The notes under the pieces are model-generated. The model was not told the origin of the DNA, ran no database searches, and was given only the letters and a program-made list of their open reading frames with translations. Positions 5,697-22,884 of a stretch of 25,671 nucleotides of DNA are shown in pieces. Each line of letters starts with the position of its first letter. Position 1 is the first letter of the stretch. The position numbers and the translations under genes were made by a program. Source of the DNA: a virus. The stretch lies in the IMG/VR virus record IMGVR_UViG_3300023192_002313, positions 1 to 25,671 of that record; one strand, written 5' to 3'.

Positions 5697-5708
5697 AATT
5701 TATATATA
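5697..5708 (+). promoter_or_regulatory. TATA box upstream of the 45-residue ORF
   Basis: An AATTTATATATA stretch directly after the terL stop is centred about 26 nt before ATG 5729, predicting a leaderless message. The region is generally TA-rich, which lowers certainty. Confidence 0.4.
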
Positions 5709-5728
5709 ATATATAATAATAACAGAAT

Positions 5729-5866: not shown

Positions 5867-5877
5867 ATATAGGTTAA

Positions 5878-5888
5878 AGTTTATATAT
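5878..5888 (+). promoter_or_regulatory. TATA box for the acidic 82-residue gene
   Basis: GTTTATATATT is centred about 27 nt before ATG 5910, which supports 5910 rather than the in-frame GTG 5859 as the start. Confidence 0.5.
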
Positions 5889-5909
5889 TATCATATCATT
5901 ACTATAATT

Positions 5910-6158: not shown

Positions 6159-7659
6159 AATTACCAATACAAGAGTGGGTGACGATATACATTTCTATGT
6201 AAACGGTGTAGAGTCTAGAGGACTAGTAGTAAAAATGAATAATGCTTACATTACAGTTTTTAAAGAGGATGGAGACCTTGAAGATATTCACATAAATGAA
6301 ACATTTTTTGTGAAGGATATAATTTTAAATAAAACGTGGGATCATATGGACGATAATGAAAGATATGATGCACTTATAAAAGCACATGCACCAAGTCCAA
6401 GATATATCACTAAACAATGGGATCAGATACCAGTAGATTTACAAAATCTTTTGACTAAAAACAATTCTTCCAACGTCTCAGAAAAAGATGGCAAGGATGA
6501 TGACATGAATACAACTGTTAGAATATTTGATAAGAAATTTTGTTCTAATTGTGGAGTAAGCGATGAAAAGGTTGCTGAAGATCAAATGATATCAATGGGT
6601 GGTGGTTGTCCAAATTGTGGTCATGGTTCAGCTTACAATACCGATAAGCCTAAAAATACACAGGAAAACAAAGCTTCAAGTGGTGATACTAATACATTAG
6701 AAGAAAGTGATGATGATCAAGCAACAGCAAACGCAATGGTAACTGGTGGTAAAACAAGAAGCGGTGGATTTAAACTTAACACTCCTATAGGAACAGAAGG
6801 AATGACTGAACATGGTGGATTTGGGCATACTCAAATGACAAGACAACATGGTATTAGAGAAAGACCCCTTTCTACAGAAGAACGACCAAAAGAATCAAAA
6901 GGTACAGAACTAACAGAATCAGAGACAGCAGCCAACACTAAACGTCTTGCAGGAAGTAATGTCAAATTATTCAGTGGATATGATGATAAAGGTGAAAAGA
7001 TAGATAAGGCATGGGTATCATGGTTAGCAGACAGGATAGATTTCTTAAATAAAGTTCATGGTTTACATGATCAGAAAGATCAAAAAAGTGATTTTCAATG
7101 GCATAAGGCTGACTCATCAAATTTACTAAGAACAGATCAAGCAGAAAGAACATCTGAAGGTAAAGTATCTGGTGTAAGTGATCATAACCAAAAATACACT
7201 GGAGAGAGTGGTGGCGTATTCGGAAAAAGAGAAAGTGAAGCCCACGGGCAAGAAAGAGTAGGAAGAGCAGATACCATTGCAAATGCTGATGGAAGAAGAG
7301 CACCTAAAGGTGGAAAATCACCAAGCGATTTAGAAAAAGCAATAGAAAAATTAAACCAAATGAAATCAAATGTTGAAAATGCAACCCATGGTGCAGTAGC
7401 AGGAACACCAAACGCAGGAGTTAACACTAACACTAATTTTGATGCACCTAAAGATTATGAAGGTGCTTCACATTCAGGAATCAGACCAGAACAATTCAAG
7501 CATGAGAATAAAAAACCATCAATTAAGAAGGAAAAACTTGCTTTAGGAGACACAAAACCATCAGATACACATGGTGGAAGTAATAAATATGACACTAAAC
7601 AGCAAGGGAAAAATATAAAAGGACGTATCGTTGACCAAAGTAGGGATAGAAAGACATGA
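6142..7659 (+). CDS. Large low-complexity protein with N-terminal beta domain and zinc ribbon
   Basis: 505 residues (ATG 6151, three codons later, is an alternative). Residues 1-105 look folded: a small beta barrel (VGDDIHFYV ... RGLVVKM ... YITVFKEDGD) followed by NKTWDHMDDNER and a PRYITKQW segment. A zinc ribbon follows (C134, C137, C156, C159). The remaining about 340 residues are Gly/Lys/Asp/Ser-rich, probably disordered, and contain the SGD ... ESETAANTKR ... NVKLF ... GEKIDKA block that is repeated in the next protein. Located downstream of terL where portal or head genes often lie, but no portal signature is present. A virion-associated or scaffold-like role is only a guess. Confidence 0.6.
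   Translation: MKAMNKITNTRVGDDIHFYVNGVESRGLVVKMNNAYITVFKEDGDLEDIHINETFFVKDIILNKTWDHMDDNERYDALIKAHAPSPRYITKQWDQIPVDLQNLLTKNNSSNVSEKDGKDDDMNTTVRIFDKKFCSNCGVSDEKVAEDQMISMGGGCPNCGHGSAYNTDKPKNTQENKASSGDTNTLEESDDDQATANAMVTGGKTRSGGFKLNTPIGTEGMTEHGGFGHTQMTRQHGIRERPLSTEERPKESKGTELTESETAANTKRLAGSNVKLFSGYDDKGEKIDKAWVSWLADRIDFLNKVHGLHDQKDQKSDFQWHKADSSNLLRTDQAERTSEGKVSGVSDHNQKYTGESGGVFGKRESEAHGQERVGRADTIANADGRRAPKGGKSPSDLEKAIEKLNQMKSNVENATHGAVAGTPNAGVNTNTNFDAPKDYEGASHSGIRPEQFKHENKKPSIKKEKLALGDTKPSDTHGGSNKYDTKQQGKNIKGRIVDQSRDRKT
6913..6957 (+). repeat. Copy 1 of a 45-bp near-identical coding repeat
   Basis: Matches 8190-8234 at 44 of 45 bases by direct comparison. It encodes TESETAANTKR-x-AGS in both low-complexity proteins. 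A third short echo (GCAGCAGCCAACAC) is near 8622. Confidence 0.85.
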
Positions 7660-8702
7660 CAGTAGGCAAACCAGAATTTAACTTGAACTCTTTTGGTATT
7701 ACATATGTTAAGAAAGCTAGACAAGAAGGTTCCCACCGAGGGGGAGATCCTGATATAACAGCAAAACCAACAGATAGTATAAGTGATGTAGATATAGCAA
7801 CATCTGGATTTGGTGACAGACAAAGTGATTCAAAAGGTGATACTAAAAGAATTGAGGGAGCAACTCAAGGTGGTAAAGATTCAAAAGGTGATTACACACA
7901 AGCTATGACTTCATCAGGTAAACTTGGTGTAAAGACTGGTAAAAAAGTAGGTACTGAGGTTTCACATCGATCTGGAATAGAAGATCCATATGTAGGTCAA
8001 GAAAGAGATGCTTCTGGCAATAAAAACATATATAAATTACCAGAAAGTCAAACCTTGCCAAAAAATGCAGCAATGCAATTAGCAATAATTAAATGTAAAT
8101 TACTTAAAGTAAAAGCATCAAGTGGTGATATTAATTATAAACGACCATCAGCAGAAGAACAGAGGGGTGAGCAAAGAGGTACAGCACAAACAGAATCAGA
8201 GACAGCAGCCAACACTAAACGTATTGCAGGAAGTCCAGTTATTTCTGATATTTCTCTACCTAATGTTAAATTATTCAGAGGAAATGATGATATGGGTGAA
8301 AAAATAGATAAGGCATCATGGACTGGTAGTGGGAGTCCTTATCCAAAACCAGCCGAACCTGAAATAAAGGAAAAGGGTACTGGTGACAAAATTCCTTATG
8401 AGAAACTAGGTGATTTACCACAAGGTAAAGATGACAGGAAGGTGGAATCATCAACTATCGTGGATGAGAAAGGCAAAGAAAGAAAATACCCAAGTCCAGC
8501 AGACAGGTACAAAGCAGAAGTGAGAAAAATGGCAGTAGATGCTATTGATGAAGCTATGAAAAACATTGAAACATTTCAAGATGCAAAAGAAAAAGCATTA
8601 CAAGAAGAATTAATCAAAGACGCAGCAGCCAACACGTCAGACAACGGTTCAGTAAACTTTGTATATTCTGACGTTAAAGAAAAACAAGTAAAGAAGGAAT
8701 AG
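7656..8702 (+). CDS. Low-complexity paralogue of the preceding protein
   Basis: 348 residues, joined to the previous gene by an ATGA overlap. Mostly charged and Gly/Ser-rich, without a recognisable catalytic motif. Residues about 150-225 repeat the block of the upstream protein (KASSGD ... TESETAANTKRIAGS ... NVKLFRG-DD-GEKIDKA). A C-terminal helical region (VDAIDEAMKNIETF, AKEKALQEELIKDAAANTS) could be a coiled coil. Overlapping genes plus a shared block suggest that the two products act together. Function unknown. Confidence 0.55.
   Translation: MTVGKPEFNLNSFGITYVKKARQEGSHRGGDPDITAKPTDSISDVDIATSGFGDRQSDSKGDTKRIEGATQGGKDSKGDYTQAMTSSGKLGVKTGKKVGTEVSHRSGIEDPYVGQERDASGNKNIYKLPESQTLPKNAAMQLAIIKCKLLKVKASSGDINYKRPSAEEQRGEQRGTAQTESETAANTKRIAGSPVISDISLPNVKLFRGNDDMGEKIDKASWTGSGSPYPKPAEPEIKEKGTGDKIPYEKLGDLPQGKDDRKVESSTIVDEKGKERKYPSPADRYKAEVRKMAVDAIDEAMKNIETFQDAKEKALQEELIKDAAANTSDNGSVNFVYSDVKEKQVKKE
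8190..8234 (+). repeat. Copy 2 of the 45-bp coding repeat
   Basis: Differs from 6913-6957 at one base. The surrounding protein block is similar over a longer stretch, although copy 2 has an insertion (PVISDISLP) between AGS and NVKLF. Confidence 0.85.
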
Positions 8703-8737
8703 AAACCTTTAAATATTATAACACTAGCAAAACATCA

Positions 8738-8869
8738 TTGAGAAAGGATGATACTCACTACTGTATAGAATGTAATACTACATTACCGTGGCGTTACAAG
8801 GGAAGACAGAGAATATACTGTAGTCCAACATGTAGGAAGTTATATACTGAAAAAATTAAGAATAAATAG
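8738..8869 (+). CDS. Small FCS-like zinc protein (43 aa)
   Basis: TTG start about 27 nt after the TATA-like CTTTAAATATT near 8706-8716, so probably leaderless. Cys pattern is CIEC near residue 9 followed by YCSPTC near residue 28, as in MYM/FCS-type knuckles. Basic C-terminus. Function unknown. Confidence 0.55.
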   Translation: MRKDDTHYCIECNTTLPWRYKGRQRIYCSPTCRKLYTEKIKNK

Positions 8870-8889
8870 TAGTAGTTGTTATTCAAACT

Positions 8890-9246
8890 GTGATTAAACT
8901 CTATGTAGACGGAGGTACTAGAAACAATAGTATCTGTCTGGTAGACGGGTTTAAAACTATAATAAAGATTCGTAATGGAAAGACAGGAAAACCTACAAAT
9001 AACGAACTTGAATACTTTGCATTATTATATGCTTTAACGTATATTAGTAATAAATATAGTAAAAGAAATGTAAAAATACTTAGTGATTCTATGCTTGTAG
9101 TAAAACAAATTAACAAGGTCTGGAGAATAACCACACCTACACTTACCCCTATATGGGAGAAATGTATGAAATTAATGACTGATAAAATAAAGGTAGGATG
9201 GGTTAGTAGAGAATTTAACAGAGCTGGGTGGGTTCTGGAGAAATAA
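8890..9246 (+). CDS. RNase H-like protein
   Basis: 118 residues from GTG. RNase HI-type motifs are present in order: YVDGG with D7, NNELEY with E39, LSDSMLVVKQI with D66, and a C-terminal WVSREFNRAGWVLE. In classical RNase HI the fourth carboxylate lies in this last motif; here the equivalent place reads NRAG, a variant that I recall from short phage-encoded RNase H-like proteins, so activity is likely but not certain. RNase H removes RNA from RNA:DNA hybrids, for example primers. The 3' end overlaps a convergent minus-strand gene by 32 nt. Confidence 0.75.
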   Translation: MIKLYVDGGTRNNSICLVDGFKTIIKIRNGKTGKPTNNELEYFALLYALTYISNKYSKRNVKILSDSMLVVKQINKVWRITTPTLTPIWEKCMKLMTDKIKVGWVSREFNRAGWVLEK

Positions 9247-9454
9247 CTCTGCTTGGGTATGTTGGTTTAATTTCACTAGACTGGTGCTGTTTACTAAAGA
9301 ATAACAGTATATTGTGAAATAGTACTGCATCAGATTCATACAAATCACCAGTTTTGGTTTTTTTAACAAACTGTGCAAACTGTCTAAATTTCTCTTTATC
9401 TTCCCATGTTATAGATATTGTAGTGTGAGAGTTACCTATTTTTCTTCTAGCCAA
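9215..9454 (-). CDS. Putative ribbon-helix-helix DNA-binding protein
   Basis: 79 residues from a TTG, with a minus-strand TATA box (9487-9476) at the leaderless distance. The N-terminal part (basic ARRK, then a TTISITW strand and a helix WEDKEKFRQFAQFVKK) followed by a second helix (ESDAVLFHNILLFFSKQ) resembles a ribbon-helix-helix repressor. It is the only minus-strand gene amid plus-strand genes here and diverges from the protease gene, so it may regulate the shared intergenic region. Its 3' end overlaps the RNase H-like gene. Confidence 0.5.
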   Translation of the reverse strand: MARRKIGNSHTTISITWEDKEKFRQFAQFVKKTKTGDLYESDAVLFHNILLFFSKQHQSSEIKPTYPSRVISPEPTQLC

Positions 9455-9475
9455 GATATGTAAGTTATATATTCC

Positions 9476-9508
9476 TATTATATAAGCTTTTACTTAAAGT
9501 TTTTATAC
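9476..9508. promoter_or_regulatory. Divergent TATA boxes between the RHH candidate and the protease
   Basis: Minus strand: CTTATATAATAG at 9487-9476, about 27 nt before TTG 9454. Plus strand: TTTTATAC at 9501-9508, about 25 nt before ATG 9529. Neither carries the ACTAGTA element. Confidence 0.5.
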
Positions 9509-9528
9509 TATATAAGTAAAAAAATAAT

Positions 9529-10359
9529 ATGAAGGTAATAACACTATGTGTGTTAGTTTTTAGCATGTTATTACTAGTTGTGCTTGGTTCTGTTGTTGAA
9601 ACTACACACGCAGAACTACCCAGAACCCTTGACGAATTAAAAACATTAAAAGTTAGACAAACCACAAACCCAAATGTGTGTATATTTGAGGTAAATCCAT
9701 CCATCTCAAATAACTGGTACGGTATAAAAAATGCAACACTTGTTGCCATATATTCGTGGCAAGAGAAATTATTTGAAAAATACATTATGGGGGATTGGAT
9801 TATTAGACACACAATAATACCTTGGGAAGAACACGAAAATAAATATGCATATGATTACCCACAATGTAATGTGATGATAAACTATGAGGGTAAAAACAGT
9901 GTTAATAGTAAAGCATTGGGAACAACATCAATTAATTTTAACAAATCAACCCACAAGTTCATGTTTATTAATGTTTATTTAATACAACCAAAACAAATAA
10001 TAGATCTACGTATTAGTAATGTAACTGACAATAAACTCATAATTACCACAAAGGTAACAGATACTGAAATCAGTTTGAATACTATAAGAAACGTGGTTTT
10101 ACATGAATTTGGTCATTCGATAGGTCTTCATCACTACAATATAACAACACCTCTTAGTGTTTCAGAGAAAAGTGTGGATAGATCTGTAATGATACCAAGT
10201 ATTAATCCGTTTAATGAAAATCAAGTACTTAGTATTACAAACCCTGACATGGAAGTTGTAGGAAAACTCTATGGTAGCGATGGCTGGGGTGGAATCACAC
10301 CACCATATAACATAGACAGATGCTCTATTTTTAATCTTATGATTGTAAAGTGTTATTAG
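9529..10359 (+). CDS. Secreted metzincin-type zinc metalloprotease
   Basis: 276 residues with a clear N-terminal signal peptide (basic MKV, hydrophobic core 4-22, likely cleavage after THA near 28). The zinc site HEFGHSIGLHH has H192, E193, H196, G199 and H202 in the HExxHxxGxxH pattern, and a Met-turn follows in RSVMIPS (M221). This is the matrixin/metzincin layout of an extracellular endopeptidase. In a virus it could act on the host S-layer or envelope at entry or release, or process a secreted protein; none of this is shown by the sequence. Four or more N-glycosylation sequons (e.g. NAT, NKS, NVT, NIT) fit an exported archaeal protein. The 3' end overlaps the convergent methyltransferase by 23 nt. 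Confidence 0.85.
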   Translation: MKVITLCVLVFSMLLLVVLGSVVETTHAELPRTLDELKTLKVRQTTNPNVCIFEVNPSISNNWYGIKNATLVAIYSWQEKLFEKYIMGDWIIRHTIIPWEEHENKYAYDYPQCNVMINYEGKNSVNSKALGTTSINFNKSTHKFMFINVYLIQPKQIIDLRISNVTDNKLIITTKVTDTEISLNTIRNVVLHEFGHSIGLHHYNITTPLSVSEKSVDRSVMIPSINPFNENQVLSITNPDMEVVGKLYGSDGWGGITPPYNIDRCSIFNLMIVKCY

Positions 10360-10807
10360 TTTTCCTAAAAATTATACACATGTAAGCATTTCTGCTCATA
10401 AATTCACTAGGTTTGCCATTGTATAGAAATCTAATTCTGCCCTTTATTGCATGATATTCAGCATTATCTTCAATATATTTGTGCCAGTATTTACTACTAC
10501 ATGTGTTTGCTGGTATTATCATTATTATGTTAATGTTATTTTCTCTCCATTCTTCATACGCTTTCTTTACAAAGTCACCAGTCATACTATGAGGAGGGTT
10601 ACACCAAACATCATCATTCCAACTAGCTGTCAATCCATCAGAAACAACATTGAAAAAATCACTACATTTCTTGTTATCAACATTAGCACAAACATCAATC
10701 ATTGGTACTATCTCATATTTTTTACAGATATCACTAAACAGTTTATGAGGTGTTTCATATTCATCACTTAGCGACAAACTACTCCTTGATTTTTTATGTA
10801 ATTCCAC
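10337..10807 (-). CDS. Phage-type DNA N6-adenine methyltransferase
   Basis: 156 residues from GTG. Matches the phage Dam family (DNA_N-6-adenine-methyltransferase) in order: DEYETPHKLF near 15-24, DVCAN near 38-42, SDGLTASW near 56-63, the catalytic CNPPH (NPPH 70-73) and the C-terminal GRIRFLYNGKPSEFMSRN segment. NPPH takes the place of the DPPY/NPPY motif IV. The enzyme would methylate adenine in viral DNA, probably as protection from restriction or to mark replicated DNA. No cognate endonuclease is adjacent. A minus-strand TATA box at 10839-10829 is 27 nt before the start. Confidence 0.85.
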   Translation of the reverse strand: MELHKKSRSSLSLSDEYETPHKLFSDICKKYEIVPMIDVCANVDNKKCSDFFNVVSDGLTASWNDDVWCNPPHSMTGDFVKKAYEEWRENNINIIMIIPANTCSSKYWHKYIEDNAEYHAIKGRIRFLYNGKPSEFMSRNAYMCIIFRKTNNTLQS

Positions 10808-10839
10808 TAGATACTCTTATATGGTAGTAATTTATAAGA
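10806..10839. promoter_or_regulatory. Divergent promoters between methyltransferase and zinc protein
   Basis: Plus strand: ACTAGATACTCTTATATGG at 10806-10824, TATA centred about 27 nt before ATG 10846. Minus strand: CTCTTATAAAT at 10839-10829, 27 nt before GTG 10807. The plus copy is the leftmost member of the ACTAGTA promoter family. Confidence 0.65.
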
Positions 10840-10845
10840 GTTGTT

Positions 10846-11253
10846 ATGGGAACTAAGATAAGTGCAAAGTTTGACGGTTCATGTAAAATTTGTGGGGATG
10901 GTTGGAAAGTTGGTAATGAAATATTTTATCAAAAAACACCAAAGGCAATATGTATAGATAAGGACTGTTTCTTTCAACAAGGAGGAACTGTAAATAGTTT
11001 TCAACAGAAACCATTTGGTAATCCTTCAAACATAATTATTACACAATTACCAGAAGTTAACGTTTCTGAGGATACTATAAAGATCGGTACATTGTGGAAA
11101 CAATACTTTAAAGAGGCACACGAATTGACTAAAAATGTTTATCCTAAAGAGGATGTAAATAGTGATAGGTTTGGAATGATCAGACAGACAGTGTTGAATC
11201 AACTTGTACACCTTGCTGGTGTAGTAGTTGCAAAACAAAATAGTTTGAACTAG
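10846..11253 (+). CDS. Zinc-finger protein with helical C-terminal domain
   Basis: 135 residues. The N-terminal SAKFDGSCKICGDGWKVG with a later CIDKDC gives C13, C16, C36 and C41, a ribbon that resembles small phage nucleic-acid-binding domains with a FDGxCxxCG entry. Residues 70-135 are predicted helical. It stands first in the replication block under its own promoter, so a DNA-transaction role is plausible. No specific family recognised. Confidence 0.6.
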   Translation: MGTKISAKFDGSCKICGDGWKVGNEIFYQKTPKAICIDKDCFFQQGGTVNSFQQKPFGNPSNIIITQLPEVNVSEDTIKIGTLWKQYFKEAHELTKNVYPKEDVNSDRFGMIRQTVLNQLVHLAGVVVAKQNSLN

Positions 11254-11254
11254 T

Positions 11255-11272
11255 ACTAGTAACCCTTATATT
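11255..11272 (+). promoter_or_regulatory. ACTAGTA-type promoter
   Basis: ACTAGTAACCCTTATATT, with the TATA part centred about 26 nt before ATG 11294. It starts two bases after the previous stop codon. Confidence 0.7.
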
Positions 11273-11293
11273 CTAGTAAAATAATAAACAAAT

Positions 11294-11641
11294 ATGAATG
11301 TTTCAGAAGTACTGGATATTTCCAGTTCACAAGGAGGCAACTCAACTCCGCTAGAAGTAGGGGAGAAAATAGTCATTCAGGGATTCAAGGTTAAACACGT
11401 TGAACAACTAGGTGCTGATGTAGCAGAGATTCAAACTACAGAGGGATTAAGACACTCATTCGGAAAAACAGTGGTAGGACAAGCAAAGTCAGACTATTGG
11501 AAGGATGTAGTTGAAAAATGTGTTAAAAAGGATGCCTCTGACGGACTCGACTGTTACGTTGTGGAACGTATCTCGGACAAGACTGATAGACCAATGATCT
11601 GTTTGTCAATGTTTCCAAGAGCACAAAAGAAGCAACAATAA
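11294..11641 (+). CDS. Hypothetical protein, possible OB-like fold (115 aa)
   Basis: No family recognised with confidence. Predicted strands (EKIVIQGFKVKHVE, ADVAEIQTTEG, CYVVERIS, MICLSMFP) around a helix (DYWKDVVEKCVKKDA) could be an OB-like barrel, and its position among replication genes makes a single-strand-binding role worth testing. It has its own promoter and a T8 tract follows the stop at once, so it appears to be transcribed as a single gene. Confidence 0.55.
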   Translation: MNVSEVLDISSSQGGNSTPLEVGEKIVIQGFKVKHVEQLGADVAEIQTTEGLRHSFGKTVVGQAKSDYWKDVVEKCVKKDASDGLDCYVVERISDKTDRPMICLSMFPRAQKKQQ

Positions 11642-11645
11642 CCTC

Positions 11646-11653
11646 TTTTTTTT
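11646..11653 (+). terminator. T8 terminator
   Basis: Eight T residues begin 4 nt after the stop of the preceding gene, with no hairpin before them, as in archaeal U-tract termination. Confidence 0.5.
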
Positions 11654-11659
11654 ATTATC

Positions 11660-11776
11660 ATGAAACAAAAATGTCCAAGATGTGAATTTGAAATGAAGAA
11701 TATTACAGCATGTCACATGATATGTATTAATTGTGGTGCTCATTTAGACTGTTCGGATAAAGGTAGTTTCTGGTAA
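11660..11776 (+). CDS. Small zinc-ribbon protein (38 aa)
   Basis: The pattern CPRC near residue 5, a Cys near 18, CINC near 22 and a final LDCSDKGSFW fits a compact zinc ribbon. The DCSDKGS ending is distinctive and I recall similar endings in small archaeal ribbons. The stop overlaps the next ATG by one base. Confidence 0.6.
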   Translation: MKQKCPRCEFEMKNITACHMICINCGAHLDCSDKGSFW

Positions 11777-12075
11777 TGAAGTGGGAAAAGTTACCAAACG
11801 GTAAATGGAAACCTTTAAAGGAGTTTAAAAAACCTGTTAACGGTAAATATGATTATGATGATCCAATTTACAAGAAAAGAATGAAGGAAAGGATGAATAA
11901 AATTAAACTGTTTTGTCACACATGTGGCACATATACATTATTAAATCCATGTGTACATCATTTACCTGATGGTTACAAAAATGAAGTGAGAAGAAAGGCT
12001 TATAAAAAAGCGATAAAGGAGTCTAAATCTGTGACAGAGAAAAAACCCAATAAAGAATTAACTAGTAACTCTTAA
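11776..12075 (+). CDS. Basic protein with a CxxC...CxHH zinc site (99 aa)
   Basis: Rich in Lys. C47, C50, C59 and H61/H62 form a plausible single zinc finger (FCHTCG ... NPCVHHLPDGY); flanking basic helices would suit nucleic-acid binding. Start overlaps the previous stop. The last codons lie within the next promoter, showing tight packing. Function unknown. Confidence 0.55.
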   Translation: MKWEKLPNGKWKPLKEFKKPVNGKYDYDDPIYKKRMKERMNKIKLFCHTCGTYTLLNPCVHHLPDGYKNEVRRKAYKKAIKESKSVTEKKPNKELTSNS

Positions 12076-12079
12076 ATAC
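12061..12079 (+). promoter_or_regulatory. ACTAGTA-type promoter (consensus copy)
   Basis: ACTAGTAACTCTTAAATAC, identical to the copy before the MCM operon. TATA centre about 25 nt before ATG 12100. It overlaps the 3' end of the upstream coding region. Confidence 0.8.
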
Positions 12080-12099
12080 GTGAAAGTTGTACGATAACC

Positions 12100-12903
12100 A
12101 TGGTGTTTGCAAAGAAATGGAGTATAGAACTTGAGAAAAAAGACGACATTATTCACTTAGAACCATTAAGTGATCTTCATATTGGACATGTAGGTTTTGA
12201 TGAGGATCTTTATAAAAAACGAATCAGAGCCATCTCAAAAAATCATAACAGGTATACAATATTCTTAGGTGATCAGTTGGATGCTATAACTACATTTGAT
12301 AAAAGATTTAATCCCGACATATCAACAGAACATGATATTGATAATCAACGTAAGACTTGGCAAACATTATCACAGCCATTAATAGATGTACATAAAGAGT
12401 CTAACAATAAGAAAATATGTGGGCTGTTACACGGTAATCACGAATATAATATTAGAGAGATAACAAGATCATATATAGAAAATCAATTCTGTGAACCAAA
12501 TGGAATTGACTTTCTTGGTAGTAGGGCAATTATAGGGTTAGAGATAACCTATAAAAAGAAAATACTAGGTCAATGGACTATACTGGCAATACACGGTTCA
12601 GGTGGTGGTAAGCCAGAAAGGATGTTTGATCAGATGAAAAAGAACGTGTATGCAGATATATTCCTCTGTGGACATTTACACCAAAAACGTTATACCCCAG
12701 AAATAGTCAACGATTTTGACTTTGACACAGGCAAGCGTTGGGAAAGAGAGATACATTTGGTAAACGCTGGCACTTTTTGTCACACAGTAGTAGACGATAC
12801 CGATGGGTATATGGACAGGAAGAATGAGATTGTTTATGGTCAAATAGGTACTACAACTTTGTCGATAGATGCATTTAACGGAAAGGTGGTTGGACATATC
12901 TAG
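12100..12903 (+). CDS. Calcineurin-like metallophosphoesterase
   Basis: 267 residues with the whole metallophosphoesterase motif series: LSDLHIGH (D25, H27), FLGDQLDA (D58, D61), HGNHE (N113, H114), AIHGSGGG (H165) and CGHLHQ (H192, H194). Such enzymes hydrolyse phosphomono- or diesters at a two-metal site. In a replication block a nuclease or DNA-repair role (as for Mre11/SbcD-like members) is possible, but the length and the lack of a partner ATPase do not identify a substrate. A consensus virus promoter drives it. Confidence 0.85.
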   Translation: MVFAKKWSIELEKKDDIIHLEPLSDLHIGHVGFDEDLYKKRIRAISKNHNRYTIFLGDQLDAITTFDKRFNPDISTEHDIDNQRKTWQTLSQPLIDVHKESNNKKICGLLHGNHEYNIREITRSYIENQFCEPNGIDFLGSRAIIGLEITYKKKILGQWTILAIHGSGGGKPERMFDQMKKNVYADIFLCGHLHQKRYTPEIVNDFDFDTGKRWEREIHLVNAGTFCHTVVDDTDGYMDRKNEIVYGQIGTTTLSIDAFNGKVVGHI

Positions 12904-12952
12904 GATAATACGAAATGGTAAACGCACACTGGATACCCAGATTCCTTCACCA

Positions 12953-13144
12953 ATGCGTATATCAAATAAAAGTAACCGTGACAAGGTTTTAGATGTTATG
13001 AGAGATTCTAAATGTCCGTTAACTTTTACGGAAATTTTATATGCAACTGAGATGAGAAGTAGTGGGGGACTTGCTAATGTTTTAAGGATGTTAATAATTG
13101 ATAAAATTGTAGGAAAGCATTCACGTTTATATGACCTCTTATAA
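12953..13144 (+). CDS. Winged-helix DNA-binding protein (63 aa)
   Basis: The segment RDKVLDVMRDSKCPLTFTEILYATEMRSSGGLANVLRMLI has the helix-turn-helix-wing order of a small winged helix: a first helix, a CPLTFTEI turn, a recognition helix and a VGKHSRLYDLL strand pair. Start uncertain: ATG 12869 would add 28 residues and overlap the phosphoesterase by 35 nt; ATG 12953 gives only the domain. Likely a transcription factor or replication accessory. Confidence 0.6.
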   Translation: MRISNKSNRDKVLDVMRDSKCPLTFTEILYATEMRSSGGLANVLRMLIIDKIVGKHSRLYDLL

Positions 13145-13162
13145 CTAGTAATTCTTAAATAG
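13144..13162 (+). promoter_or_regulatory. ACTAGTA-type promoter
   Basis: ACTAGTAATTCTTAAATAG begins in the stop region of the winged-helix gene; TATA centre about 26 nt before ATG 13184. Confidence 0.75.
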
Positions 13163-13183
13163 TCTAATATTGTAATAGTCTAC

Positions 13184-13354
13184 ATGTTCATTGAAATTAC
13201 TTGGAAAAACAAAAAAGGTGACACTTTAAAATCATATATAGAGTCAACAAAAGTTCAAGGTTTTATTAACTCATTTGTTGAACTAGACGTAAAGCCAGAA
13301 TTAACAATGCCAGATAATGTGACTTTAGAGACATCTACACCATTACAAACGTAA
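13184..13354 (+). CDS. Small hypothetical protein (56 aa)
   Basis: Leaderless ORF placed exactly at the expected distance from its promoter, which is the main support for it. The sequence alternates strands and a helix (FIEITWKNKKGD, KVQGFINSFVEL, VTLETSTP) and may be a small beta-rich fold. No family recognised. Confidence 0.6.
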   Translation: MFIEITWKNKKGDTLKSYIESTKVQGFINSFVELDVKPELTMPDNVTLETSTPLQT

Positions 13355-13778: not shown

Positions 13779-14111
13779 ATGCAGTTCAAAAGAAACACAG
13801 TAACACTGTCAGTAGGATATCACGCAGCTCCTATTTTTGAATCACTAGACAGGATAAAACCAGATAATATGAGTTTTAGTTTGTTCCTAGCAGTGGTAGC
13901 TGATGATTATGTCAAAAGCAAAAAAAAGACAGCCAGAATAACGGATTTTGATCATGAGGATGTTATTGCAGAACTGCCCCTATTTTATGCAAGTATATTA
14001 AAATGGGAAAAACACATAATCAATCTAAACACAGAGGACTTTAAGAAATTACAGAAGAGGTTTTCTCAACTAGGAAGCCTTATCAGCAAGGAGGTAGAGA
14101 AAAGGTTATGA
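13779..14111 (+). CDS. Ribbon-helix-helix-like protein upstream of MCM (110 aa)
   Basis: N-terminal NTVTLSVGY strand, a helix (APIFESLDRI) and a second helix (MSFSLFLAVVADDYVKSKKK) resemble a ribbon-helix-helix DNA-binding unit, followed by a helical C-terminal half. Its gene overlaps MCM by ATGA and lies directly after the iteron-like cluster, so it is the best candidate for an origin-binding or MCM-loading factor or an autoregulator. No Cdc6/Orc1 gene is in the window. The role is inferred from position only. Confidence 0.5.
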   Translation: MQFKRNTVTLSVGYHAAPIFESLDRIKPDNMSFSLFLAVVADDYVKSKKKTARITDFDHEDVIAELPLFYASILKWEKHIINLNTEDFKKLQKRFSQLGSLISKEVEKRL

Positions 14112-16060
14112 GTATGACTGATTCTGCTGTTCAAGACAAGATTTATACCATTTTAAATTACAGGGAATGGGTTGATAAACTGTCAAGTGTCAGACCAAAC
14201 GACACAATTACTGTTGACATATCAGATGAAAAGTTTGTTGACCTTTACATTTCAAGACAAGGGGACTTTATAAAGCTATTTAGAAATGCAGTAATGATAA
14301 TTCTGGCACAAAAACACTTAGGAATTAACGTTGAAACAACATTCAGCTCATTGAAAATCAAACTTGTCTCTGATGATGAGATTCACATGAGGGACATTAA
14401 CTCTAAAAAAGAGGGTGAAACCATATGCTTCGTAGCAACTGTAATAGCAACTGATGCTCCTAAAACATATATAAAGTCTGCAAATGTAGAATGTCCTAGA
14501 TGTTTTACTACAGAAAGAGTAACATGTTCATTTGATAGGACACTCCCAACACTATTATGTATGAATGCTGGGTGTGGCAGATCTAAAATGGATGTAATAA
14601 AAAGAGGAGTAGAGACAGATGATATACAAACAATATTACTACAACAACCACTAGAATCTGCTGATAATAATTCACCAATACTATTCTATGGTAAATTAAT
14701 AGGTGATAATGTCGGTAATTCTTTCATAGGTCAAAGAAAGAAAATAATAGGTATATTTAGATCAGTAATTAAACCAAAGGATGAAGAACATGAGGTTATA
14801 ATCGATATAGTATCAATCAATGATTTGGATGACACTAGAGATATATTACCTTCCCCAGATGAAAAGATACTACTATTAAAAGAATCAAAAGAACCAGAAT
14901 TCATAGAAAAGTTAATTCATAGTTATGCACCAGACATTTATGGATATGACGATATAAAACTATCATGTCTGTTACAGTTAGTAGGTGGGGTTAAAACTAA
15001 AAAGAGAGGTGATATTAACATCTTACTAGTAGGTGACCCAAGTATGGCAAAGTCAGAACTGTTAAAATATGGCAAAAGTATAACCCGAAAATCAATATAC
15101 ACCAGTGGTAGGGGATCTACAAGTGCTGGTTTAACCATAGGTATGGTCAAATTATCAGATGGTAGAATGGTGGCACAAGCTGGTGTATTACCGTTATGTT
15201 CAGGTGGGTATGCATTCATAGACGAGTTTGACAAAATGAATAAGGATGACAGATCTTCAATGCATGAAGCTATGGAGCAACAAACAGTATCAATAGCCAA
15301 AGCTGGTATATCATTAACATTAGAAGCCAAAACTAGCATCATGGCAGCAGCCAATCCAAAATTTGGTACTTATGATAATGATTTATCCTTAATGGATAAC
15401 ATAAACATACCAAGTCCGCTATTATCAAGGTTTGATCTAATATGGCTCATAAGAGATACTGTAAACGTTACAGAAGATACGTTAAAAGCTAATCACATAC
15501 TGGATGGGTTTGATGAAACTGAGGAAAAAAAAGACTGTAGATTTTCTACTAGGGAATTATCAGCATTCATTAACGAGTCAAAAAAATGTACCCCAAAAAT
15601 AACTAAAGAAGTAAGGGATGAAATAGTAAAGATATATGAAAAACTAAGACAAACATCAGATAACGAGCTTAATGTAGGTATTAGACAACTTGAGGCATTA
15701 ATCAGATTGTCAATGGCTCATGCAAAGCTAAGATTCAAAGAACATGTTGGATTAGAGGATATAAAAGCAGTAAAAAACCTACTAATAAATATGTTCGATA
15801 AATTTGGTATAGATTTAGTAAAGGCAAATACAGCACAATCTACATTAATAGGAAGCACTGGCAAAATGTCAAAACAACAATTATATATACATGTTTGGGA
15901 ACAATGTAAAAATAAAAACGGATGTGTTAAAACAACCGACTTCTTTAAAAGACTTGCAGATGAAGGAATAGATGATATGACTAGACAAAAGTTATTTGGG
16001 GAATGGGAAAAAACAAATCAAATAAAGGCGATGGCAGATGGTACGTGGAAAAGAACATAA
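14108..16060 (+). CDS. mcm: MCM replicative helicase
   Basis: 650 residues, usual archaeal MCM length. The N-terminal domain has a zinc site (C129, C132, C151, C156). The AAA+ core shows the MCM-type Walker A GDPSMAKS (309-316), Walker B FIDEFDKM (D372, E373), sensor-1 AAANP (N416) and the arginine-finger motif SPLLSRFD (R441). A C-terminal winged-helix region follows (residues about 590-650). It is the 3'-5' replicative DNA helicase; a virus copy means that it supplies its own fork helicase and does not fully depend on the host. It lies in an operon between the RHH candidate and RadA. Confidence 0.95.
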   Translation: MSMTDSAVQDKIYTILNYREWVDKLSSVRPNDTITVDISDEKFVDLYISRQGDFIKLFRNAVMIILAQKHLGINVETTFSSLKIKLVSDDEIHMRDINSKKEGETICFVATVIATDAPKTYIKSANVECPRCFTTERVTCSFDRTLPTLLCMNAGCGRSKMDVIKRGVETDDIQTILLQQPLESADNNSPILFYGKLIGDNVGNSFIGQRKKIIGIFRSVIKPKDEEHEVIIDIVSINDLDDTRDILPSPDEKILLLKESKEPEFIEKLIHSYAPDIYGYDDIKLSCLLQLVGGVKTKKRGDINILLVGDPSMAKSELLKYGKSITRKSIYTSGRGSTSAGLTIGMVKLSDGRMVAQAGVLPLCSGGYAFIDEFDKMNKDDRSSMHEAMEQQTVSIAKAGISLTLEAKTSIMAAANPKFGTYDNDLSLMDNINIPSPLLSRFDLIWLIRDTVNVTEDTLKANHILDGFDETEEKKDCRFSTRELSAFINESKKCTPKITKEVRDEIVKIYEKLRQTSDNELNVGIRQLEALIRLSMAHAKLRFKEHVGLEDIKAVKNLLINMFDKFGIDLVKANTAQSTLIGSTGKMSKQQLYIHVWEQCKNKNGCVKTTDFFKRLADEGIDDMTRQKLFGEWEKTNQIKAMADGTWKRT

Positions 16061-17084
16061 GAGTAATATAGTAGATGACATAGATAATAATATGTCTGAA
16101 ACTGTAGAAGAAATACAAGAACCTATAATTGACTTGTCTGTAACTCAACTTGACGGGGTCGGCTCTGCAACCGAGAAAAAATTAACTACGTTTGGTGTAT
16201 CATCCCTGATAGATATCTGCATAAGGGGAGGCAGAGAAATATCAGAAATAACTGGGGTCACAAAATCAAAGGCAGATAGTTGGGTATTCAACAGTCAGAA
16301 AATATTAGAAGATAATAACATGATAAGAAAATCTGATTTAGATGTTATTGACCTAATGGAATATCAAGACAATCTAAAAACAATATCAACAACATGTAAT
16401 GCCATAGACGGATTGTTTGGAGGTGGGGTCAAACCCGAATGTATATATGAAGTTTATGGTGAGTTTGGTTCAGGTAAAACACAATTTTGTAACACATTGA
16501 TAGTTGAAGCTATTAACAAAGGTGACAATATTGTATGGATAGACTGCGAGGATACATTTAGACCTAGAAGAATAATTGAAATATTGAAAGTAAAAGGATA
16601 TGCAGAAACAAAGGAAGAGTTAGAGACTGCACTTAAACGTATAACCTATTTCTATACACCAAACACTGAACAATTATTAGGTACTATAAATGCATTATCA
16701 AAAACAATGGAGAAGAAAAGACCATCACTTGTTATCCTTGATGGATCTATAGGTCAATTCAGGGAAGAATACCTAGGTAGGGGGACTCTTGCAGACAGAC
16801 AAAATCAAATAGCCAGACTAATGACACATATTAAAAACATATCATATTATTTTAGATGTACCGTGGTGTTTACAAACCAAGTACAAACAGATCCGTCTGT
16901 AATGTTTGGAGACCCAGTTAAACCAATAGGTGGTAATGTTGTGGGTCACGCATCAACGTATAGGATATATTTCAAAAAATCAGGCAAGAAGAGAATTGCT
17001 AGAATGGTAGACTCTCCAGAACACCCAATGGCAGATGCAGAGTTTAGACTTACTGCCAAAGGTGTAGAGGATATAGAGGAATAA
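16038..17084 (+). CDS. radA: RadA recombinase
   Basis: 348 residues, close to cellular RadA. N-terminal helix-hairpin-helix region (LDGVGSATEKKL, 38-50), Walker A GEFGSGKT (141-148), Walker B LVILDG (231-236), L1 region FREEYLGRGTLADRQ (241-255), L2 region QVQTDPSVMFGDP (281-293) and a C-terminal ATP cap. It forms filaments on single-stranded DNA and exchanges strands, likely for recombination-dependent replication. The start could also be ATG 16092 (18 codons later); the longer form overlaps MCM by 23 nt, and neither start has a clear SD. Confidence 0.92.
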   Translation: MVRGKEHKSNIVDDIDNNMSETVEEIQEPIIDLSVTQLDGVGSATEKKLTTFGVSSLIDICIRGGREISEITGVTKSKADSWVFNSQKILEDNNMIRKSDLDVIDLMEYQDNLKTISTTCNAIDGLFGGGVKPECIYEVYGEFGSGKTQFCNTLIVEAINKGDNIVWIDCEDTFRPRRIIEILKVKGYAETKEELETALKRITYFYTPNTEQLLGTINALSKTMEKKRPSLVILDGSIGQFREEYLGRGTLADRQNQIARLMTHIKNISYYFRCTVVFTNQVQTDPSVMFGDPVKPIGGNVVGHASTYRIYFKKSGKKRIARMVDSPEHPMADAEFRLTAKGVEDIEE

Positions 17085-18671: not shown

Positions 18672-18914
18672 ATGGATAATAATGTAACTGTCGATTTTCG
18701 TGTATATGGCACTGACAGAGGTGATTATTATAGTGAAAGTAATAGATGTATTATTAATCTAAATACGCATGAAAGTATTGACGATATATTTAAGACAATT
18801 CAACATGAATTAATACATTTTTGCATAGATGATTTAGGTGAGAATGACGATATGGACGAAGATCAGGAAGAAAGGTTAATTTTTAATATGCAGTGGGCTT
18901 TTTACTCGTTATAA
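18672..18914 (+). CDS. Mini-zincin (HExxH) protein (80 aa)
   Basis: The helix IFKTIQHELIHFCIDDLG has H45, E46 and H49 in HExxH form, preceded by an antiparallel-strand region (VDFRVYGT, NRCIINLN) and followed by an acidic loop and EERLIFNMQWAF, where E67 or E68 could be the third ligand. This is the order of SprT/ImmA-like minimal metallopeptidases, but half their size. It may cleave a regulator or be a non-catalytic metal protein. The end overlaps a convergent zinc protein by 32 nt. Confidence 0.6.
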   Translation: MDNNVTVDFRVYGTDRGDYYSESNRCIINLNTHESIDDIFKTIQHELIHFCIDDLGENDDMDEDQEERLIFNMQWAFYSL

Positions 18915-19098
18915 ATCCATGGAGACCTCTAAATCTAGCCTTATTCCTTACTAACCCATTACAACAAGAACATCTTAACCTACCATTGTTTTTTCGCTCT
19001 CTTTTTAAAAATCTTTTACCTATAAACTTCGCACATCCCTGACAGTAATAATTTAATCCCAACGCCTTGGCAAATCTAATACAAATACCGTTACACAT
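18883..19098 (-). CDS. Zinc-ribbon protein (71 aa)
   Basis: YCQGC (C19, C22) and CSCC (C43, C45, C46) make a likely ribbon with a very basic linker (KRFLKRERKNNGRLR), suggesting nucleic-acid binding. A TATA-like GATAAATATGG on the minus strand near 19127-19117 is about 24 nt before the ATG. Confidence 0.55.
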   Translation of the reverse strand: MCNGICIRFAKALGLNYYCQGCAKFIGKRFLKRERKNNGRLRCSCCNGLVRNKARFRGLHGFITSKKPTAY

Positions 19099-19109: not shown

Positions 19110-19406
19110 CTACTTTCCATATTTATCATCCCTTAGTTTAAACCCGAGTGGGTCTGAATTGATATTTTTACCATTTTTCTCCGCATATAATTCATATACA
19201 CTAGTAGAAGTCATAGCCTCTTCCTGTATATCTTCATATAATTTTAATATTTGATCCTTATTGAGATTTCTACACCTGTTATGTACAATAGATTCTAACA
19301 TACCCTTAACATCTAATGATCTTCTACCACTCCCCTTACCTTCTATTTCAAGTGTCATTAAGACAGACATATGATAAATGAATCTTTCCCTGTGTGATAA
19401 TGTCAT
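19110..19406 (-). CDS. Hypothetical protein (98 aa)
   Basis: Start overlaps the stop of the 81-residue gene upstream, so it is in the same operon. Predicted helical, with a KGSGRRSLDVKGM linker. No cysteine cluster or catalytic motif; no family recognised. Confidence 0.55.
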   Translation of the reverse strand: MTLSHRERFIYHMSVLMTLEIEGKGSGRRSLDVKGMLESIVHNRCRNLNKDQILKLYEDIQEEAMTSTSVYELYAEKNGKNINSDPLGFKLRDDKYGK

Positions 19407-19648
19407 ACCTTGTTTGCAAGTGTAAATTCATGCATAGATAACTGTCGTTTTAATCCACTGTCATCCATATCTTCAAAATATTTCTTTTCATCTCTATGCA
19501 TCTCTATCCATAATATGTTTTGTAAATCCATTATTCTTTTTATAGTTTTACTCCTACTAAAAACCATCTCTTTTATCAAGTATTCTACAATGTTATTACT
19601 TATAAGTTCTGTGATTTGATCCATTGTTTTTTTTATTTTTTTAACCAC
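19403..19648 (-). CDS. Hypothetical helical protein (81 aa)
   Basis: GTG start supported by a minus-strand box ACTTAAATAG (19678-19669) centred 26 nt upstream; ATG 19624 is the alternative. Mostly helical with a basic N-terminus. No family recognised. The promoter lies in the last codons of the VWA gene, so the pair 81 aa and 98 aa can be expressed separately from it. Confidence 0.55.
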   Translation of the reverse strand: MVKKIKKTMDQITELISNNIVEYLIKEMVFSRSKTIKRIMDLQNILWIEMHRDEKKYFEDMDDSGLKRQLSMHEFTLANKV

Positions 19649-19668: not shown

Positions 19669-21303
19669 CTATTTAAGTGTGTCTAGTACAGCTAGTTTGA
19701 ATTTATTAACTAAAATTCGTCCACCGTCAGACATATCTCTTACACTTACTACCTTGCTTTTACCGAACACTTCTTTTAACACATGATTACCCCAAAAATC
19801 TACACCGACAGAGAGAACTACTATCTCATTAGCATATCTTCTCGCTTTTAATACAGCCTTTTTATTCATCTTTAGCAAGGTCTTGGTAGATATATTATAA
19901 TTCCAACTCTGATATTGTGGTTGACCGTCTGTAATTAATATTAATAGTTTTTTTCTACCACTCATTGTCTTTAATATTCTGGATGCGTAATCCAAAGCCA
20001 AGTGGGTAGGTGTCAGTGCAAATCTTTCCTTGTTTTCACATGTTATCTTATCACAGTCATCAATATTATTTATATCAGTAATACCTACATCACCTCTATT
20101 GTTACTAGACCACACATTTGCCTTGATTTTAATATTATCATAATCTTCTATAGAGTCAAACAATGTCGCAACCAAATTTCTTACTTTGGACATTTTTTCA
20201 AAATTTCTCATAGACATAGATCCGTCTATAGATATAACTATAGACAGACCATTCACTATCTTCTTGTCGACAAAACAATTATTAATATCATAACCTCTTA
20301 TTTTACCTTCAATATATGATTCCATGTCTATTTCATCCCCATCGTAACCGATCTTACTTTTTGGCATCTCTGAAACATTTCTAAATAACTTCCTAAGATT
20401 ATGTGATAGTATATTATCTACCTCGTAACTTGATGGTACACGTGTGACAGGTTTTAGATATGTTGGTTTTAGAATATTTCCTCTACTTGTGCCACTCATT
20501 GACGATTTTAATTTATCAATATCATTTTTAGCATCATTTCTTGATTCTTCAACAACATCGCTAAAATCATCTATATCATCTATAAATGTAGTATCATCTT
20601 CAATCATTGAAGGACTGTTCGACATTTGATCTATATCACTACCATCAAGTGGTTCACCAGTAAATTTGTCTATATCTTTTGGTTCCTGTACTAACCACTC
20701 ATCAAGCATTGGTTTTAATTTTTTTAATAATATTAATGCACCAAGCCTGCCGAGACCGCATACATCTTCTAATGCCTGTTTGTATTTTTTATAATATTTG
20801 TGTTTTTTAACCAAGTCATCTCTAAAAAATCTAATATTTAAAATAATATTAACTGGGTTGTTGTTACACTCTTTATGTAACTTACCTCTATTAGTCCTAG
20901 CTCTAACAAATCGTTTTTTATTTGCTAGCCACAATCTAGACATTAATGACTCAATACGTTGATCCTCTAATACATTCATAGTATCCCAATAAAGTTTACG
21001 TTTTTCATCAGATAACTCCTCATCCTTAACCCATCTATCAACAAGTTCTTTAGCCTCTGGTATAGGTGTACGCATGATAATATGTCCTAACTCATGATTG
21101 AATGCCGTGAATTTTTCAATACCTTTTACAGCAGGGGTCGCAACATTAAGAATAAAACCTTTACCGTCAAGTTTTTTATCAATTACCTTGTTGTCATCAT
21201 TCCAAAATACAACATCAATTTTACAACCTATCATATGTTCAGCAATATCGGAGGTTTTTCTAAAAAACTCCTTATCACTAAGTAGATCTTTATCTCTTGC
21301 CAT
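19669..21303 (-). CDS. Zincin plus VWA protein (CobT/NorD-like partner of MoxR)
   Basis: 544 residues. An N-terminal zinc-peptidase-like part has FNHELGH (H70, E71, H74) and a later NVLEDQRIES (113-117), the HExxH ... LEDxRxE pair typical of the CobT/NorD group. A disordered acidic linker (about 210-270) follows. The C-terminal VWA domain has a complete MIDAS: D360-x-S362-x-S364 (SIDGSMS), a threonine in LTPTH near 431-433 and D459 in LITDG. In known systems such proteins partner MoxR AAA+ ATPases for metal insertion or complex remodelling, and the MoxR gene is two genes upstream. No chelatase large subunit is present, so the target differs or is elsewhere. Its ATG overlaps the stop of the zinc protein upstream. 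Confidence 0.85.
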   Translation of the reverse strand: MARDKDLLSDKEFFRKTSDIAEHMIGCKIDVVFWNDDNKVIDKKLDGKGFILNVATPAVKGIEKFTAFNHELGHIIMRTPIPEAKELVDRWVKDEELSDEKRKLYWDTMNVLEDQRIESLMSRLWLANKKRFVRARTNRGKLHKECNNNPVNIILNIRFFRDDLVKKHKYYKKYKQALEDVCGLGRLGALILLKKLKPMLDEWLVQEPKDIDKFTGEPLDGSDIDQMSNSPSMIEDDTTFIDDIDDFSDVVEESRNDAKNDIDKLKSSMSGTSRGNILKPTYLKPVTRVPSSYEVDNILSHNLRKLFRNVSEMPKSKIGYDGDEIDMESYIEGKIRGYDINNCFVDKKIVNGLSIVISIDGSMSMRNFEKMSKVRNLVATLFDSIEDYDNIKIKANVWSSNNRGDVGITDINNIDDCDKITCENKERFALTPTHLALDYASRILKTMSGRKKLLILITDGQPQYQSWNYNISTKTLLKMNKKAVLKARRYANEIVVLSVGVDFWGNHVLKEVFGKSKVVSVRDMSDGGRILVNKFKLAVLDTLK

Positions 21304-21518
21304 TATACTGTCTCATATATACCGTCTCTCACTTTACCAGCATAATTATAATATCTAGGACTTTTATATTTACCAGCCTTGGATAACACCATAAGTGTTA
21401 TGTTCTTTGGGTATATCTTTGGATGTTTTATGACAGTGCATAGCATACATGTACCAAATAATTTCCAACATCTTTTTTTAGAAGATTTAAAACTTTTTTT
21501 ACAATTTTTACATCTCAT
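21303..21518 (-). CDS. Zinc-finger protein leading the VWA operon (71 aa)
   Basis: CKNC (C3, C6) and CMLC (C24, C27) with a basic stretch KKSFKSSKKRC between them. The stop overlaps the VWA start by one base, so the two are translated together from the ACTAGTA-type promoter just upstream. Function unknown; an adaptor of the VWA protein is possible. Confidence 0.6.
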   Translation of the reverse strand: MRCKNCKKSFKSSKKRCWKLFGTCMLCTVIKHPKIYPKNITLMVLSKAGKYKSPRYYNYAGKVRDGIYETV

Positions 21519-21538
21519 ATCTATTACTCATTATAATA

Positions 21539-21557
21539 CTATTTAAATCTCTCTAGT
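21539..21557 (-). promoter_or_regulatory. ACTAGTA-type promoter, minus strand
   Basis: ACTAGAGAGATTTAAATAG read on the minus strand, TATA centre about 27 nt before ATG 21518. Drives the zinc protein and VWA genes. Confidence 0.7.
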
Positions 21558-21564
21558 AATCAAA

Positions 21565-21846
21565 TTATATACCTCTCCACGCATCATCATCATCATCATC
21601 AATATAACCTTCTTTATTACATACTTGACATCCTTCAATACTCCCTTCTTCACCTCTGCTATATTCACAGAATCTCTCACCCTCACATTCAGGACATACA
21701 CCATTACAACCGCAGTTACAAACAATGTCTGCATCAAAATCATCATTTATTTTTAAATTAAAACAATGTAAACACAGTTTAGGATTTGGGGACTTTACTT
21801 CCTCAAAATTATGTATATTTTCACAAAAAAAAGTAGGGGTTGTCAT
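21565..21846 (-). CDS. Cysteine-rich protein with DnaJ-like zinc knuckles (93 aa)
   Basis: CLHC (25/28), CNCGC (43/45/47), CPEC (51/54), C60 and CQVC (73/76): enough for two or three zinc ions, with CxxCxxEG-like parts recalling the DnaJ zinc domain. Overlaps the MoxR stop by ATGA, so it is coupled to the AAA+ gene. A run of six Asp near the C-terminus is encoded by a GAT microsatellite (about 21582-21600). Could be a chaperone-like adaptor; not proven. Confidence 0.6.
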   Translation of the reverse strand: MTTPTFFCENIHNFEEVKSPNPKLCLHCFNLKINDDFDADIVCNCGCNGVCPECEGERFCEYSRGEEGSIEGCQVCNKEGYIDDDDDDAWRGI

Positions 21847-22796
21847 TTGAATGTTATTCCAAATGTCTCTTGTACTCTAGCCTTGATAAGTTCATGCTCA
21901 TTAGGATCTGTATACTTTATCATTATTGTTTCCTTTACGGTCTCCAGTAACACATTACTGATGATATTAGGGTCATCATCATCATAATCTTCAAGTAAAT
22001 CACGATACACATCAACAAACTGTATCAAATCTCTAGTAGATAACACGTATTCAATGTCACCCTTTACTCTTAGACCGTATGTATCCTGTGCAAGTGTTAA
22101 TAATGGATCTTTTACATCGCTCTCAGGTATGTCAGTCCAATCTATTATTCTAGTTACTTGTTTACTGGTTGGATAATCCCATATTCTACCAATGAATCTA
22201 GATTTTAGATCTTCTGTAAGGTTATTTACACCAGCATATTCTATTGGGTTTGTAGTTGCAACAATGGTTAACTTACAATTTTTATTTAAATTATAAGTTC
22301 TACCTCCAGCACTACAGCTATTTCTCTTATCCAACGGTCTGTTTAACCACTTTTGCATGTCATAATCTAACGCACCTATCTCATCAATGTACAGACACAC
22401 ATGACGAAAATGGTTTGCTACCTCGAAAACGGTTGGTAAGATACCTCTCTCAAAATATGAACCTTCCTTGTCAACTTGCAATCTTCCCTCAAGTCTAGCA
22501 TGATTTGTTCCAGAACTACAGTTTAACTCCACCAAAGCATACCCTTTATCTCTACATATGGCATGTATCAATGATGTTTTACCTATTCCTTTAGCACCAT
22601 ATATCAAATATGGCATAGTTGCCCTCTCCATAACTCTCTCTAAACGTTTTCTCTCACCAGCCAAGTCGACATAATCACCCATATCATCAATATTTTCTGA
22701 TGAATATAGATCAAAATCTATTTTGTTAACACGTCCTATTGACCCGTCACGCTCGTCAAGAATTGTATCAAGGAATTTTACGTCATTATTTATCAT
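21843..22796 (-). CDS. MoxR-family AAA+ ATPase (CobS/NorQ-like)
   Basis: 317 residues. Walker A GAKGIGKT (67-74), Walker B LYIDEIGAL (D138, E139), sensor-1 TTNP (N183) and an arginine finger in LKSRF (R200). The order and the short helical C-terminal lid fit MoxR/CbbQ/NorQ/CobS proteins, which act as hexamers together with a VWA partner; that partner is encoded downstream. First gene of the cluster, with a good ACTAGTA-type promoter 27 nt upstream. Related cobS-like genes are known from other viruses, but their role is unsettled. Confidence 0.85.
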   Translation of the reverse strand: MINNDVKFLDTILDERDGSIGRVNKIDFDLYSSENIDDMGDYVDLAGERKRLERVMERATMPYLIYGAKGIGKTSLIHAICRDKGYALVELNCSSGTNHARLEGRLQVDKEGSYFERGILPTVFEVANHFRHVCLYIDEIGALDYDMQKWLNRPLDKRNSCSAGGRTYNLNKNCKLTIVATTNPIEYAGVNNLTEDLKSRFIGRIWDYPTSKQVTRIIDWTDIPESDVKDPLLTLAQDTYGLRVKGDIEYVLSTRDLIQFVDVYRDLLEDYDDDDPNIISNVLLETVKETIMIKYTDPNEHELIKARVQETFGITFK

Positions 22797-22817
22797 TAAA
22801 TAGTAATTATTTTAATT

Positions 22818-22864
22818 GTATTTAAGTCTCACTAGTTGGATAATAACTAATAAATCTTAAATAC
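22818..22864. promoter_or_regulatory. Back-to-back ACTAGTA-type promoters
   Basis: Minus strand: ACTAGTGAGACTTAAATAC (22836-22818) for MoxR. Plus strand: ACTAATAAATCTTAAATAC (22846-22864), 25 nt before ATG 22885. The two 5' elements are only 9 bp apart, so a single factor could control both directions. Confidence 0.75.
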
Positions 22865-22884
22865 CACTAAGTACATAGAAAAGT

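Follow-up and report, generated by a model that had tools for sequence, protein, structure and literature searches.

The 25,671-nucleotide window analysed here, a 25.7-kb IMG/VR virus record, encodes a MoxR-type AAA+ ATPase together with a VWA protein that carries a zincin-like domain at its N-terminus, and this MoxR/zincin–VWA system is genuine and well conserved. The gene order of the pair, its motifs, the fold models and the similarity to both NorQ and NorD are established. An earlier note on this DNA had proposed a CobS/CobT- or NorQ/NorD-like pair, and a remodelling pair of the NorQ/NorD type with an N-terminal zincin is supported. We consider it reasonably probable (roughly 0.6) that the pair would serve as an ATP-driven machine that remodels protein or nucleoprotein complexes belonging to the element, and perhaps also clips them. 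The finding matters chiefly because it casts doubt, of a testable kind, on the cobalamin label given to viral CobST.

The operon and its conservation

The window contains genes for a terminase (4311-5696), an MCM helicase (14108-16060), a RadA-like recombinase (16038-17084), a phosphoesterase resembling DNA-repair exonucleases (12100-12903) and a PD-(D/E)XK/Cas4-like nuclease (1196-1957, plus strand), a combination that identifies it as an archaeal tailed virus; this is a marine archaeal virus. No RNA families or tRNAs were found in the window. Elsewhere on the plus strand are a matrixin-like metalloprotease (9529-10359; PF00413, E 2.9e-6) that is probably secreted, given its N-terminal hydrophobic stretch, a protein built, by eye, of 'YINESLSISES.NRLMNM'-type repeats (76-654), perhaps a fibre or adhesin, and a 118-residue protein (8890-9246; N-terminus VIKLYVDGGTRNNS) that looks RNase HI-like by eye.

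The four open reading frames reported between 19669 and 22796 are all present there on the minus strand: the MoxR ATPase (317 residues; 21843-22796), two small Cys-rich proteins, Cys93 (21565-21846) and Cys71 (21303-21518), and the zincin–VWA protein (544 residues; 19669-21303). The four-gene operon that had been claimed thus exists, but it extends further, as these genes are followed on the same strand by p81 (19403-19648), directly 3' of the VWA gene, by p98 (19110-19406), a conserved small protein whose gene overlaps that of p81 by 4 nt, and by a second CxxC protein of 71 residues (18883-19098). The AT-rich divergent intergenic region 5' of the MoxR gene (22797-22884) is the probable promoter region, as predicted from its sequence. 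Translational coupling of the Cys-rich genes, also proposed previously, is visible in the DNA as start/stop overlaps: at the MoxR/Cys93 junction, the MoxR stop TGA overlaps the Cys93 ATG by 4 nt as ATGA (..AAATGACA..), and at the Cys71/VWA junction, the stop TAA and the VWA ATG have one base in common as TAATG (..GTATAATGGCA..). Past the operon, on the opposite strand, lies a gene for an 80-residue HExxH protein (HELIH; 18672-18914) with weak M78/SprT similarity, which is kept in nearly all of the related archaeal-virus contigs.

The ATPase is assigned by its matches to Pfam AAA_5 (E 7.7e-13) and to PHROG 249, labelled 'porphyrin biosynthesis' (E 4.2e-17), and by a complete set of MoxR-type motifs: the Walker A motif GAKGIGKT, the DE box, the sensor-1 residue N182 and the Arg finger R199 (in SRF) are invariant across nine relatives in the MoxR alignment, A2 (residue numbers in A2, and in the corresponding VWA alignment, A1, exclude the first Met). 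The best structure matches of the A2 profile are midasin, CbbQ and NorQ.

Relatives were collected in searches that used the two proteins, VWA and MoxR, as well as an alignment of each. The gene order is maintained in the close relatives (L003 and L005-L009), and wherever ≥3 kb of sequence upstream of the VWA gene was available (29 loci), a MoxR gene lies upstream of it on the same strand and within 3 kb, although these loci are not all independent (the numbers for L031 and L033 are identical). Four viral contigs lack a MoxR gene, and all four begin either <2 kb upstream of the VWA gene or inside it. The earlier note called for a survey of related viral genomes for synteny of the four genes; conserved synteny is supported for the MoxR–VWA pair.

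The two Cys-rich genes are less constant. Both are real genes, as their products are 66% (Cys93) and 72% (Cys71) identical to counterparts encoded in the same order in L003. Cys93, with the motif CPECEGERFC...GCQVCN, appears from its sequence to resemble half of a DnaJ-type zinc finger; it has neither a J domain nor a Pfam match, and the four CxxCxGxG repeats of DnaJ are reduced to two motifs, both imperfect. A Cys93 gene stands between MoxR and VWA in the closest clade only, and a Cys71 gene in that clade and in L018 and L020, whereas MoxR and VWA are directly adjacent, with neither gene between them, in L010, L011, L022, L029, L031, L032, L050 and L051 and in the bacterial-phage loci. By contrast, homologues of p81 are found 3' of the VWA gene in nearly all of the related archaeal-virus contigs, including L010, L029 and L032. 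The core of the system is, therefore, MoxR–VWA, with p81 a regular third partner in archaeal viruses and the Cys-rich genes lineage-specific accessories; the suggestion that the latter encode integral zinc adaptors is weakened to this extent, despite their conservation in the close clade.

The zincin-like and VWA domains

The 544-residue protein had been described as joining HExxH and LEDxR motifs to a VWA domain with a complete MIDAS, and this description is accurate: HExxH, LEDQR, DxSxS, T430 and D458 are invariant in A1. The VWA domain (19684-20250) matches PF00092 with E 5.6e-9 and has its MIDAS formed by DxSxS, Thr and Asp (D359, T430 and D458 in A1). The N-terminal zincin-like domain (residues 1-208; 20680-21303) is recognized through its model and weak matches to metallopeptidases. 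It contains two motifs, the HELGH active-site motif (H70, E71 and H74; 21082-21096) and NVLEDQRIE (N110, E113, D114, R116 and E118; 20950-20976), the latter probably holding the third zinc ligand, which would be either E113 or D114. All of these residues, together with R158, are invariant in 32/32 aligned N-terminal domains from archaeal viruses, bacterial phages and a Candidatus Nitrosopelagicus chromosome; thus, the combination of HExxH and N..ED.R.E admits no variation across this set.

When modelled alone on the 32 sequences, the zincin domain yielded a confident model (m5501dfa8f0c7), with pLDDT 93.7 and pTM 0.88. Its matches to solved peptidase structures are weak (best Foldseek E 0.62; VIA Z ≤6.0), and the leading ones are zinc metallopeptidases, namely, abylysin, BlaR1, Ste24/ZMPSTE24, jannalysin and ArdC; families missing from the match lists were not counted as evidence. 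Against viral models, the matches of the domain are to phage and halovirus proteins named VWFA or 'CobT'. A search of PDB sequences with the zincin-domain profile found no peptidase. The DUF2201 (PF13203) metallopeptidase–VWA proteins have, like the window protein, an HExxH followed by N..xD and then a VWA-like domain; kinship of the zincin part with DUF2201_N was considered and rejected, as the hhalign probability is 1.8%, which is not significant despite the similar-looking HExxH...N..xD.

The full-length model (m16fdd871ab7c; pLDDT 75.9) finds its best match in NorD of the NorQD complex (9qh6), with a Foldseek E of 1.2e-7 and a VIA Z of 18.6 over 226 aligned residues (rmsd 4.7). Generic VWA domains follow closely (VIA Z 16-18), such that the VWA fold alone sets NorD little ahead. 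However, the assignment gains support from the strand that precedes the VWA domain in NorD (DGxxLDLDAVV), as this also aligns with the viral protein, at YDGDEIDMESYI. NorQ/NorD thus shares with the viral pair the same MoxR group, the NorD-like linker strand and the VWA-MIDAS. In contrast to the window protein, the NorD proteins that we examined, which are from plasmids, lack HExxH, and their loci adjoin nitric-oxide reductase genes; none of the latter were found among the window ORFs inspected, in agreement with the earlier claim that a reductase subunit is missing.

Proposed mechanism and client

The published mechanism of NorQD (PMC13036017, PMC9976466) provides the model for our proposal, in which we infer complex formation, pore insertion, proteolysis and the client. 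The MoxR protein would form an ATP-driven ring, to which the zincin–VWA protein would be a dedicated partner of the NorD kind. As in NorQD, the pore of the ring would accommodate a finger of the VWA domain, the MIDAS metal would hold the client by an acidic residue, and the client would be twisted or pulled against the N-terminal domain as ATP is turned over. The zincin domain might then clip the client, or itself, or serve as a counter-grip; the metallopeptidase-like fold of the model and the unvarying catalytic residues suggest that clipping, of the client or of itself, is probable. The client would most likely be an element-encoded protein or nucleoprotein complex, involved in replication/recombination or in assembly; host enzymes that contain cobalt or another metal are unlikely clients. 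The operon lies on the minus strand, convergent to the MCM–RadA block, and the replication genes are outside it; that the pair is not co-operonic with them counts against our proposal.

The MoxR–VWA pair is not new to viruses, and the earlier note's view that a viral remodelling machine of this kind would be new is not supported, as such pairs have already been published (PMC7824862, PMC8651126, and p618/p892 of ATV in PMC4124505), and two of these precedents favour a chaperone–protease for virion assembly, which would remodel and process capsid or tail proteins. In the group 2.2 jumbo phages, a MoxR gene accompanies a VWA protein fused to an N-terminal metallopeptidase domain, as in the window (the comparison is by description), and a role in virion assembly has been proposed (PMC7824862); these are bacterial phages, unlike the virus studied here, and no Cys-rich genes are described alongside the pair. 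In ATV, the support comes from protein interactions: p618, which is present in the virion, binds a tail protein, and the VWA protein p892 stimulates its ATPase. This MoxR–VWA pair has been linked to tail development (PMC4124505). Again by description, this is an archaeal-virus MoxR with a VWA partner, as in the window, although the virus is two-tailed and spindle-shaped and the pair is reported to lack a peptidase domain (PMC7824862). Set against these parallels, the window operon is beside MCM/RadA and ~14 kb from the terminase gene, and related zincin–VWA/MoxR pairs are also found in an archaeal chromosome and on plasmids, which have no virions. An assembly role for the pair is, overall, a serious possibility that falls short of an even chance.

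The plasmid homologues have three components. Two of them are shared with the window, namely, MoxR and a VWA protein in which both HExxH and an ED motif are present; the third, a DUF3150 protein, was not seen in the viral operon. In four plasmid lineages (IncC, Halomonas, Methylomonas and E. coli T159A), the pair is beside genes for Bet/RecT and/or a lambda-type exonuclease. Profile comparison lends modest support to homology of the zincin part in three of these lineages, IncC, Halomonas and T159A (E from 2.6e-5 to 6e-5, for a set of 10,000), whereas the support is not significant in Methylomonas. Two further plasmids (L111 and L112) keep HExxH and lack Bet/RecT or exonuclease neighbours, while in a third (L113) HExxH is degenerate. 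A family with members on plasmids, which form no virions, cannot have assembly as its sole role, although these homologues are remote, and their client may therefore differ. A bolder proposition, which we advance tentatively and regard as rather doubtful, is that viral and plasmid 'CobST' are not cobalamin enzymes but one mobile-element-wide family, an ATP-dependent remodelling protease that acts, in the manner of midasin, on DNA recombination/replication complexes of the element.

The chromosomal homologue, in Candidatus Nitrosopelagicus (L057), has a gene for a Cas4-like nuclease on one side and one for a DnaJ-domain protein on the other, and a CARF gene is close by; the two stretches of the contig that were read contain ordinary chromosomal genes. 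The Cas4-like and CARF neighbours, and the presence of the pair in many mobile elements, would suit a protease for counter-defence or host takeover that targets host proteins. PADLOC, however, gives a generic AAA similarity for the MoxR protein and nothing for the VWA protein, and the strictness with which the pair is conserved among virus families is more readily explained by a core client than by an arms-race target, so that we regard such a function as improbable, and the preferred reading remains that of a machine working on the element's own complexes. Taken as a whole, the L057 cluster, which comprises CARF, Cas4-like, MoxR, zincin–VWA and DnaJ genes and one for a large TPR protein (5182-13211), may represent a type of accessory or defence island that has not been described. 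A Cas4-like gene is also seen by eye upstream of the pair in the archaeal contig L081, whereas that of the window is far from the operon. L078 and L079 are two contig ends from one archaeal genome, each holding half of a zincin–VWA gene, and have virus-like neighbours, including a HerA/FtsK-like ATPase by eye.

The cobalamin annotation

Virome studies read viral cobS/cobT as auxiliary metabolic genes for B12 (e.g. PMC8651126, PMC8725595), and for the haloviruses it has been proposed that viral CobS and CobT join the CobN of the host and so raise B12 production (PMC8651126); the PHROG 249 label of the MoxR protein is in keeping with this, but for the present pair the cobaltochelatase reading fits poorly, and we consider it very improbable. 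CobN (PF02514) was not found in the 14 virus records searched, as the earlier note had claimed in reporting no chelatase subunit, although the records may be incomplete. Moreover, CobN was found in 0/200 genomes of the Nitrosopelagicus family, in a search that did detect it in archaeal controls. The virus is linked to this family indirectly, by the chromosomal homologue in L057 and by a terminase with 50% identity that one of these genomes carries on a short contig, and the test would lose its force if the host were another archaeon. The notion, also in that note, that the pair perhaps acts on host metalloenzymes is unsupported; CobN is lacking from the genomes searched of the presumed host family. 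Additionally, an invariant HExxH is not needed in a chelatase subunit, the similar pair on plasmids is beside recombination genes, and the window VWA protein matches neither of the CobT families PF06213 and PF11775 (the latter being matched in L010 only, below the cut-off). When plasmids were searched with tblastn for a cellular CobT, there were either no matches or matches to NorQ/NorD and the plasmid modules.

If the VWA partner is indeed an active zinc peptidase coupled to a protein-remodelling motor, in a host lineage without CobN, these viruses would not merit the B12 label. This can be tested directly in the homologues from plasmids and cultivable phages. A tblastn search with the VWA protein found no relatives in an annotated phage collection; the annotated relatives that are known include 'CobT-like' genes of Gordonia phages and gp57 of HVTV-1. 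The latter belongs to the cobST cluster that is reported to be widespread in archaeal and bacterial tailed viruses, whose cobT is said to be usually mis-annotated as a peptidase (PMC8651126). HVTV-1 gp59/gp57 is the same gene pair in the same order as in the window, and gp57 also contains HECGH, NAAEDGAIE and DxSxS; the invariance of the zincin residues argues against the view that 'peptidase' is an annotation error.
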